Translations under genes and position numbers: made by a program
Shown here: in pieces, positions 19,309-21,811 of the stretch
How positions within the stretch are numbered: position 1 is the first letter of the stretch
Layout: each line of letters opens with the position of its first letter
Assembly (NCBI RefSeq): GCF_000799075.1
Contig: NZ_JTLI01000051.1
Location: forward strand, 1-49,411
DNA from: Cetobacterium sp. ZOR0034
GTDB lineage: Bacteria > Fusobacteriota > Fusobacteriia > Fusobacteriales > Fusobacteriaceae
Length of the DNA stretch: 49,411 nucleotides
Direction of reading: 5' to 3'
The notes under the pieces: model-generated
Seen by the model: the letters and a program-made list of their open reading frames with translations, nothing else
What the model was told of the DNA's origin: nothing
Database searches by the model: none

Positions 19309-19337
19309 TTGCAATGTTTATGAAGTTATGGTACCAT
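19309..19337 (+). promoter_or_regulatory. Promoter of the riboswitch-nucleosidase unit
   Basis: A -35-like TTGCAA (19309-19314), 17-bp spacer and TACCAT (19332-19337) with an upstream TG (extended -10) predict transcription from about 19344, roughly 28 nt before the aptamer. It is divergent from the eut promoter. Confidence 0.55.
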
Positions 19338-19371
19338 CTTTCTGTAAAAGAATTAACGTACACACAAATTA

Positions 19372-19435
19372 ACTCATATATACTTGGGATTGGCCAAGAG
19401 TTTCTACGAGCTGCCGTAAACAGCTCGCTATGAGG
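19372..19435 (+). ncRNA. Purine-type riboswitch aptamer
   Basis: P1 pairs 19373-19378 with 19429-19434. P2 (19383-19387 with 19394-19398) has loop GAUUGG. The junction AGUUUCUA precedes P3 (19408-19413 with 19421-19426), which carries the canonical loop CCGUAAA. The specificity base, equivalent to C74, is C19428, predicting guanine or hypoxanthine rather than adenine. Differences from the classic xpt aptamer are a 6-nt instead of 7-nt L2, UAUA instead of UAAU in J1/2, and G instead of A at the position before C74. Confidence 0.88.
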
Positions 19436-19496
19436 GATAATATAATCACTAATAATGAGAGTATATATTCCCATAGGATTTTATATGCTCTTTTTT
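19428..19496 (+). terminator. Riboswitch expression platform with intrinsic terminator
   Basis: A 10-bp stem (19458-19467 with 19482-19491, one G-U pair) is followed by a T run, forming a terminator before the gene. The 3' strand of P1 and the bases after it (19428-19437) can instead pair with 19468-19476 (UUCCCAUAG), which would prevent the terminator. Ligand binding therefore predicts termination (an OFF switch). Confidence 0.75.
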
Positions 19497-19530
19497 ATTT
19501 TCATAAAATTTATTTTAAAGGGAGAACCAA

Positions 19531-20280
19531 ATGAAAAAACTTACATTACTTTTAACACTTCTAACATCAACTCTATCTTTAGCTAACAGAATAGCTATAA
19601 TCGGAGCCATGGACTCTGAAATAAAAATCTTACTTTCACAAATGAAAGATGTAAAACAAGAAGAAAAAGCTTCTGTTGTATTTTATAAGGGAAAATTAGA
19701 AAATAAAGATGTTGTTGTTTTCAAATCTGGAATTGGAAAAGTTAATGCTGCTATGTCTACAACTATAGCTATGGAAGAGTATGATGTAAATAAAATAATC
19801 TTCACAGGAGTCGCTGGAGCAATCAATAACAATTTAAATATAACTGATGTCGTTATATCTGATTATTTAGTTCAACACGACTATGATACGACAGTATTCG
19901 GTACTAAAAAAGGTGCTGTTCCTGGATCGATTGATGCCAAGTTCTCTGCTGATAAAAATTTAATCAATGTCGCCAAAACTTCTGCAGAAAAAGTTTTAGG
20001 AAAAAATAAAGTTTATGTTGGAACAATCGCTACTGGTGATCAATTTATTGCTGACAAACAAACTGTTCAAGCTCTAGAATCTGATTTTGGTGCATGGGCT
20101 GTTGAGATGGAAGGTGCTGCTGTTGCTCACGTTGCTAACCTTTATAAAACTCCTGTTGTTGTTATTAGATCTATGTCTGATAAAGCTGATGGAAGTGCAC
20201 ATATGAACTATAATGATTTCGTTAATATTGCTGCTGATAATTCTGCTAAAATCGTTATCAATATGCTATCACAAATGTAA
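19531..20280 (+). CDS. mtnN: Exported MTA/SAH nucleosidase
   Basis: The 249-residue protein is a 5'-methylthioadenosine/S-adenosylhomocysteine nucleosidase, which releases adenine and the thio-ribose moiety. The catalytic residues of the E. coli enzyme are matched: Glu30 in IGAMDSE, the Glu of VEMEGAA near residue 194, and the Asp of RSMSDKADG near 217. Unlike the usual cytoplasmic enzyme it starts with a signal peptide (MKKLTLLLTLLTSTLSLA), so it should act in the periplasm or outside. It has a GGGAG ribosome-binding site and lies behind a purine-type riboswitch. The following exported protein gene is 43 bp downstream and probably co-transcribed. Confidence 0.93.
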   Translation: MKKLTLLLTLLTSTLSLANRIAIIGAMDSEIKILLSQMKDVKQEEKASVVFYKGKLENKDVVVFKSGIGKVNAAMSTTIAMEEYDVNKIIFTGVAGAINNNLNITDVVISDYLVQHDYDTTVFGTKKGAVPGSIDAKFSADKNLINVAKTSAEKVLGKNKVYVGTIATGDQFIADKQTVQALESDFGAWAVEMEGAAVAHVANLYKTPVVVIRSMSDKADGSAHMNYNDFVNIAADNSAKIVINMLSQM

Positions 20281-20323: not shown

Positions 20324-21328
20324 ATGAAAAATAAAATTTTGCTTAGCTTCATACTAATTAATCTCACTGCTTTAGCTACTCTTGATCCTAGCACTGCTAT
20401 TGAAAAACTAAAGTTAAAAGAGTTATCTAAAACTTATTCAAAAGAAAAGATTCAAAATTCTTTAAAAGGTTATAAAAATATGAAGTCAGAATCGTTGGAA
20501 TCACTTTCAGACAAAGCCGTTTTAGTTGATCTTAACATCACAACTACAGACCTATTAAATAAAAAAGATTATTCAACAATATCCAATTATGTTGATGATT
20601 TCTTAGATATAAATGAAAATAGTTTAGGAAACATATCTGATAAAAACATTCTTGAAAGAATATCAAAAAAATGGTCTACAACCGTACCACCGAAAGATGC
20701 TGTTCTTTTGGATAGATTGAACATAGCTCTGGCTAATGGATTGATGACTGGGTATAACTTAAAAAATATCAATGAATACGCAAACTTTAAAAAAGAATTA
20801 ACTGCTAGTTATGGTCATAATGATATAACTCATGCATTACAGCTGATAGCTCTATTAAAAAGTGAAGATTTAGACGCTAAAATACAACTAGAGCCTAAGA
20901 CTTCTGCTTTCTTACATAATCCAAATTGGGGTTCACCTAATTATGATCATACTGTTTTACAAGATGGAAAAATCGTTCTTACTCCTACTGAGTATGATTT
21001 AAAGTTTGAATTCAAAAATTTAAATGATAAAATTAAATTTACTAAAACTATAGACCGTTACGCTAAAAAAGATTCTAAAGATCAAGAAAAGCTAATCTAC
21101 AAATCTTGGTGGCAACCATTTGTGCAAACCGACAAGATTGATGGATATAAAATGCTCATCTCTCACCTGGTTAAGAATGATTCTTTTGAGGCTAACATTT
21201 TAACTTTACCTACAAATTCTGAAGCTTTCATTAAAGCTATGAAAGATGACTCAAATCTTGAAGTTAAAACTCAAGAAATTTGGGTTAATCCTGCTTTCTA
21301 TAGATTTATGGAAGGAGACTATAAATAA
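20324..21328 (+). CDS. Exported protein of unknown function
   Basis: The 334-residue protein was not recognised. The first 19 residues (KNKILLSFILINLTALAT) form a signal peptide without a lipobox cysteine. The mature part is helix-rich with many Lys, Asp and Leu up to about residue 170, then a motif region HNPNWGSPNYDHTV (about 198-211) and a C-terminal half with WWQPFVQTDKIDGYKMLISH. The absence of membrane helices suggests a soluble periplasmic or secreted protein. It shares the riboswitch-controlled transcript with the exported nucleosidase, so a joint role in processing extracellular nucleoside compounds is possible but purely inferred from position. Confidence 0.75.
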   Translation: MKNKILLSFILINLTALATLDPSTAIEKLKLKELSKTYSKEKIQNSLKGYKNMKSESLESLSDKAVLVDLNITTTDLLNKKDYSTISNYVDDFLDINENSLGNISDKNILERISKKWSTTVPPKDAVLLDRLNIALANGLMTGYNLKNINEYANFKKELTASYGHNDITHALQLIALLKSEDLDAKIQLEPKTSAFLHNPNWGSPNYDHTVLQDGKIVLTPTEYDLKFEFKNLNDKIKFTKTIDRYAKKDSKDQEKLIYKSWWQPFVQTDKIDGYKMLISHLVKNDSFEANILTLPTNSEAFIKAMKDDSNLEVKTQEIWVNPAFYRFMEGDYK

Positions 21329-21338
21329 ATTAAAAATT

Positions 21339-21373
21339 AAAAACCAACGACTGAAAAATAGTCGTTGGTTTTT
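21339..21373. terminator. Bidirectional terminator
   Basis: A perfect 14-bp inverted repeat (21339-21352 with 21360-21373) has A runs on the left and T runs on the right. It ends the nucleosidase unit (+) and the cyclophilin-like gene (-), which converge here. Confidence 0.92.
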
Positions 21374-21385
21374 TACTAATAATTT

Positions 21386-21811
21386 TCATTCAATTTTCTC
21401 TATTACCACTTTCAACGCTTTATCTATAGATTCTAAATTTTCAAATCCAGATTCTATTTTTCCCAAAGGTACTAATCCATTAGAAGTTCTAAAGTCTTTT
21501 GTAAAAAATGCTAAATTTCCCCAAGGCGAATAATATGTTAGGTCATAAATTTTTGGCGTACAACTTCCCGGTGAGTTATTTATATTCAATCTTTTCGTCA
21601 AATAGCTTATTTTTTCAATTCCGCCATAATTTTCAAATTTTAATTCTAGTGGCAATTGATCTAACAAATCATTAGAAGCACCATTGTTATTTAAAACTAC
21701 AACTGTCTCCTTGTTCTCAAACTTTAATTTAATTTTATTTGTTGATTGCTCCATACCTAATGCAAATATTGTTAAAAATATCATTTTACATATAACTAAA
21801 TTTTTTCTCAC
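21386..21811 (-). CDS. Exported cyclophilin-like domain protein
   Basis: The 141-residue protein has an N-terminal signal sequence (about residues 1-19) and then a cyclophilin-like beta-barrel domain (IKLKFENKETVVVLNNNGAS, LPLELKFENYGGIEKISYL, DLTYYSPWGNLAFFTKDF, NGLVPLGKIESG). This family is common in anaerobes, often exported or fused to lipoproteins. Prolyl isomerase activity is not established for it. It has its own promoter upstream, located just past the end of bioC, and converges on the unknown exported protein. Confidence 0.8.
   Translation of the reverse strand: MRKNLVICKMIFLTIFALGMEQSTNKIKLKFENKETVVVLNNNGASNDLLDQLPLELKFENYGGIEKISYLTKRLNINNSPGSCTPKIYDLTYYSPWGNLAFFTKDFRTSNGLVPLGKIESGFENLESIDKALKVVIEKIE

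Follow-up and report, generated by a model that had tools for sequence, protein, structure and literature searches.

The riboswitch–nucleosidase locus

The stretch of DNA analysed here (the window, 49,411 nucleotides) is contig 51 in the 2.74-Mb genome assembly of a Cetobacterium, a genus of fish-gut-type bacteria. Its forward strand carries a purine riboswitch with its terminator and antiterminator, a gene for an MTA/SAH nucleosidase with an N-terminal leader and a second gene of 334 codons. The reading frame of the nucleosidase (19531–20280, +; 249 residues) was matched by the NCBIfam model TIGR01704 with 265.7 bits (cut-off 169) and by a second model, NF004079, with 190.3 bits (cut-off 73.8). 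All catalytic residues are intact, namely E30, E194 and D217, which we take to be the equivalents of Glu12, Glu174 and Asp197 of the E. coli enzyme. The protein is predicted to be a full-length MTA/SAH nucleosidase, with its substrates assigned from sequence.

Similarity to the cytoplasmic nucleosidases begins at residue 19–20. The extension ahead of this point, which is missing in the cytoplasmic enzymes, is a leader of 18 residues (MKKLTLLLTLLTSTLSLA, followed by NR; 19531–19584, +) with a positive n-region, a hydrophobic core that is conserved in relatives, and S-L-A preceding the expected cut before residue 19. By these features and their conservation the leader is a putative signal peptide, in line with an earlier reading of this DNA from its letters alone (the sequence-only reading), and the enzyme would be exported. 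The next in-frame ATG, GTG or TTG past codon 1 is codon 27, within the active-site motif GAMDSE, so no alternative start would yield a cytoplasmic form. A separate cytoplasmic MTA nucleosidase, which has no leader, is encoded elsewhere in the genome (L010; G000:C24) and provides for housekeeping.

A guanine-class aptamer

A scan of the window with the Rfam models returned an RF00167 aptamer at 19354–19450 (+), scoring 62.3 bits (E 1.5e-8) where 37 are required, and no other Rfam RNA, SAM riboswitches included. By alignment with the B. subtilis xpt switch and the ten other switches of the genome, stem P1 was placed at 19373–19378/19429–19434, P2 at 19383–19387/19394–19398 and P3 at 19407–19413/19421–19427 (all +). 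The same alignment puts U22, U51 and C74 (the latter at 19428) in the pocket, which are the bases that define the guanine class (PMC9295807); an adenine-type switch was ruled out by the C at position 74. The ligand of the aptamer would thus be guanine or hypoxanthine. U74, the mark of the adenine type, is found in two other switches of the genome, one before adenosine deaminase (ADA) and one before an NCS2 permease; the genome therefore employs both purine classes and has the nucleosidase under the guanine one.

The three-stem junction, the pocket, the loop-loop bases and the OFF logic of P1, terminator and antiterminator are those of the guanine riboswitch as known from B. subtilis xpt (RF00167, guanine-I). 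A difference lies in L2, which has 6 instead of 7 nucleotides in the window aptamer and in its four counterparts in the genus, that is, in all five Cetobacterium nucleosidase switches. The bases of the loop-loop pairing (GG of L2 and CC of L3) are retained despite the shorter loop.

Terminator, antiterminator and upstream signals

The aptamer is followed by an intrinsic terminator (19457–19496, +) with an 11-bp stem and six T. Its folding energy is −13.6 kcal/mol (z −4.9), and none of 300 dinucleotide shuffles was equally stable. The competing antiterminator (19428–19476, +) pairs 19428–19443, which comprises the 3' strand of P1 and the bases that follow it, with 19461–19476, and rivals both P1 and the 5' arm of the terminator. 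The stability of this pairing (−14.2 kcal/mol, z −2.0) is weak on its own, because 16 of 300 shuffles matched it; when the nascent RNA was folded before the 3' arm of the terminator had appeared, the antiterminator was predicted to be exclusive with P1 in all five relatives, for which a terminator is predicted as well. The complete purine aptamer, terminator and competing pairing that the sequence-only reading had placed before the gene were thus recovered. The arrangement points to a transcriptional OFF switch, with the direction in vivo deduced from the pairing. Control of translation as the main mode was rejected: the Shine-Dalgarno sequence GGGAG (19520–19524, +; −8.4 kcal/mol for the duplex with the anti-Shine-Dalgarno) and the start codon both lie outside the aptamer, antiterminator and terminator elements, the terminator ending at 19496. 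Upstream of the aptamer, a promoter-like site (19309–19337, +), whose first base is also that of the region given in the sequence-only reading, consists of a −35 element TTGCAA at 19309–19314, a 17-nt spacer and TACCAT ending at 19337, with a TG one base ahead of it (TGG-TACCAT) as in an extended −10. The match to the consensus is weak (8 of 12) and under the threshold of the consensus scan, so the assignment is tentative; the site is largely kept in five relatives.

A two-gene unit

The unit had been taken to end at 20280, which is too short. It continues, after a gap of 44 bp, through a second gene (20324–21328, +; 334 residues, with a signal-peptide-like N-terminus) to a probable two-way terminator at 21339–21373, a 14-bp hairpin flanked by A/T runs. 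In each of the five genomes with the riboswitch form, the second gene adjoins the nucleosidase. The flanks differ among the relatives: in the window the unit lies between eut genes and bio genes, and elsewhere peptide transport genes, a regulator or others are found. Because riboswitch, nucleosidase and the 334-residue gene stay together while the flanking genes differ, we regard them as a unit. No relative of the 334-residue protein was found in Pfam, NCBIfam or PDB sequences, and a fold search with its AlphaFold model, of middling confidence (pLDDT 78.8), brought up nothing convincing (E 0.28 at best). The family occurs in three genera of the bacterial family, also away from the nucleosidase. 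Convergent to the unit, at 21389–21811 (−), lies a gene for a small protein that has a Cyclophil_like2 domain (PF18050) and begins like a signal peptide.

The purine-switch regulon of the genome

The genome contains 11 purine riboswitches. Directly behind them lie guaA; purE, after which purK-like and purL-like genes follow; three permeases of the NCS2 family, among them a xanthine permease with xanthine dehydrogenase-like genes after it; adenosine deaminase; an amidohydrolase that lacks a leader and has a permease next in line; a PnrA-like nucleoside-binding protein; the window nucleosidase; L016, an exported MtaN-2 type nucleosidase; and L024, an amidohydrolase whose leader is that of a lipoprotein. 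Control of guaA, xpt and permease genes by guanine riboswitches is well documented (e.g. PMC11477304). The window switch differs from these in heading an exported nucleosidase rather than a gene for uptake or synthesis.

The MtaN-2 type gene (L016, 2186–2971; G000:C3:38385–39170) is preceded by a purine switch in 5 of the 5 genus members that have it. Its closest solved relative is Aeromonas MtaN-2 (PDB 5b7g), with which it shares an Asn (SNT) in place of the usual catalytic Asp. The protein is a distant paralogue of the window enzyme (26% identical), in which the usual Asp is present; the Asn of L016 could mean a different base preference. In two genomes, the MtaN-2 type and PnrA-like genes face each other, each with a purine switch of its own. 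An exported 5'-nucleotidase-like gene is located just upstream in L016 and is absent there in the relatives looked at. The lipoprotein amidohydrolase (L024, 2029–3429; G000:C7:124028–125428; leader ...SLFIVGCSS) has a guanine-type switch ahead of it; its profile matches, none of which reached its cut-off, are to deaminases of the MTA/SAH and 5'-deoxyadenosine group. A purine switch precedes this gene in all nine genus members that have it, and the same pair occurs outside the genus in G002 and G022, which belong to two different genera. With the window nucleosidase, L016 and L024 so placed, guanine-type switches head at least three exported enzymes that belong to purine-nucleoside families, and it is plausible that the regulon as a whole is a response to purine hunger.

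One of the adenine-type (U74) switches (L017, 2077–2174; G000:C7:10776–10873) has a 3' end that runs into a Shine-Dalgarno-like AGGAGG and the ATG of an NCS2 permease. This looks like control at the level of translation, in contrast to the window switch, which is of the terminator type.

Distribution of the arrangement in Fusobacteriota

The sequence-only reading had proposed a search for the same arrangement in other genomes, and a survey of 98 Fusobacteriota genomes for the riboswitch form found it in five genomes of the genus and in G087. Within the genus, the riboswitch stands before five of the six exported MTA nucleosidases, in differing neighbourhoods. Two Cetobacterium MAGs have the same unit, with a nucleosidase 95–96% identical and the same riboswitch, as found in a scan of genome contigs. 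The nucleosidase of G011 (L030), 71% identical, is not preceded by a purine riboswitch, even at E 0.05. G087 (L157) belongs to another family of the order; its switch is of the guanine type, with an unrelated terminator and the same P1/terminator logic. No purine riboswitch was found before the enzyme in the two relatives of G087 that have it (G088 and G090), and most other exported relatives are also without this riboswitch.

A different control is found in the sister genus g4, in five genomes of which (L034, L036, L037, L039 and L040) the order is SAM riboswitch, metK, exported nucleosidase. The g4 enzyme belongs to the same clade as the window enzyme, has a signal peptide and is about 55–57% identical to it, but is in an apparent operon with metK under the SAM riboswitch and not under a purine riboswitch. 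As the arrangement differs (purine riboswitch, SAM riboswitch with metK, or no purine riboswitch), control of the exported nucleosidase has changed between lineages.

A model for purine-controlled scavenging

We consider it probable that a guanine-class OFF switch governs a two-gene unit with an exported nucleosidase, and that this unit is a member of a purine-starvation regulon. When guanine or hypoxanthine is plentiful, the ligand would keep P1 closed, the terminator would form and the gene would be silent. Under scarcity of both, the antiterminator would take up the 3' strand of P1, and read-through would allow the enzyme to be made. The nucleosidase would then cross the inner membrane and, in the periplasm, hydrolyse methylthioadenosine, S-adenosylhomocysteine or 5'-deoxyadenosine to release adenine, which would be taken up and converted to AMP by Apt. 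The same regulon would supply the second exported nucleosidase, the lipoprotein deaminase-like amidohydrolase, the nucleoside-binding protein, the permeases, purE and guaA.

The sequence-only reading had suggested a purine-dependent shut-off and the scavenging of adenine. The OFF switch stands, and the scavenging logic is supported by the presence of apt in the genome and by sister switches that head genes for taking up and making purines and for more exported purine enzymes; the signal is refined, in that a guanine-type aptamer is expected to respond to guanine or hypoxanthine and not to adenine, the product of the enzyme. This mismatch between product and expected ligand speaks against the purine-starvation model, as do G011 and most other exported relatives, which lack the purine riboswitch. 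The model also calls for a source of MTA or SAH outside the cytoplasm. No adenine deaminase was found in the genome above the cut-off, so adenine would mainly feed AMP, with an indirect route to guanine nucleotides. The guanine switch must, in this case, act as a general purine gauge.

In an alternative explanation, the exported enzyme would serve methionine or sulfur salvage by freeing methylthioribose or ribosylhomocysteine outside, with the purine switch merely tuning its synthesis. The g4 orthologue, which in five genomes comes immediately after metK and its SAM riboswitch, would fit such a role. We nevertheless judge it unlikely for Cetobacterium, where control is by a purine switch of a kind that purine genes also have and where no SAM riboswitch is present in the window.

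Alternatively, the enzyme could clear inhibitory nucleosides (MTA, SAH or 5'-deoxyadenosine) from the periplasm or have a second role, e.g. in adhesion. There is a precedent in Bgp of Borrelia burgdorferi, a surface-exposed, exported MTA nucleosidase that also binds glycosaminoglycans (PMC7557402). A shut-off by purines is hard to explain on these grounds, and salvage is in keeping with a kind of control that purine uptake and synthesis genes and the other exported purine enzymes also have; both roles seem quite improbable as the main one.

The leader could also be non-functional, or hold the protein at the inner face of the membrane, which would make the enzyme a second cytoplasmic nucleosidase under purine control. 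The tree of nucleosidases bears on this: the leader-bearing enzymes form one clade apart from the housekeeping forms (support 100/99), and the clade has a few leaderless members in genus g5 (L041, L042 and L044), as this explanation would allow. Against it, the n-, h- and c-regions of the window leader are typical, leaders from two families differ in sequence while retaining the same character, and the relatives from Vibrio, Photobacterium and Shewanella in the same clade have leaders too; we find this explanation very improbable. In four of these signal-peptide-bearing relatives (L086, L087, L088 and L090, from Shewanella, Photobacterium and Vibrio), no purine riboswitch was found nearby.

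MTA/SAH nucleosidase (Pfs) acts before LuxS in the AI-2 route of many bacteria, but extracellular production of the AI-2 precursor was rejected as next to impossible since LuxS was not found in the genome.

Guanine riboswitches are usually seen as watching over the synthesis of purines and the uptake of nucleobases. In this genome they appear to govern enzymes outside the cytoplasm, and would thereby control how a gut bacterium mines the nucleosides around it. More tentatively, and with rather less confidence than doubt, we suggest that guanine switches in Fusobacteriota run a periplasmic stripping of purines by exported nucleosidases, a lipoprotein deaminase and a nucleoside-binding protein, and that the exported nucleosidase has been rewired to a purine switch in Cetobacterium and to SAM-metK control in the sister genus, in answer to purine and methionine hunger, respectively. 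If so, one reaction would serve purine hunger in the one and methionine hunger in the other. The occurrence of purine and SAM riboswitches on one family of exported enzymes also offers a natural way of testing which of the two halves of methylthioadenosine a given lineage seeks.

Relation to known systems

The combination had been put forward as undescribed. A purine riboswitch before an exported nucleosidase was indeed not found in the open literature, and the text of a large compendium of riboswitch regulons (PMC3766115) makes no mention of Fusobacteria or nucleosidases. Exported MTA nucleosidases with a suggested role in purine salvage are known from Borrelia, so each part is familiar, and what appears to be undescribed in the open literature is the control by a purine switch and the regulon of exported purine enzymes. 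Bgp and MtnN of Borrelia burgdorferi are MTA/SAH nucleosidases with signal peptides, Bgp being located on the surface (PMC7557402). They resemble the Cetobacterium enzyme in being exported forms beside a housekeeping one, with a proposed role in adenine supply; in contrast to it, no purine riboswitch is reported for them in that paper. Furthermore, B. burgdorferi is a purine auxotroph, whereas in the Cetobacterium genome purE is present and lies behind a switch of the same kind.
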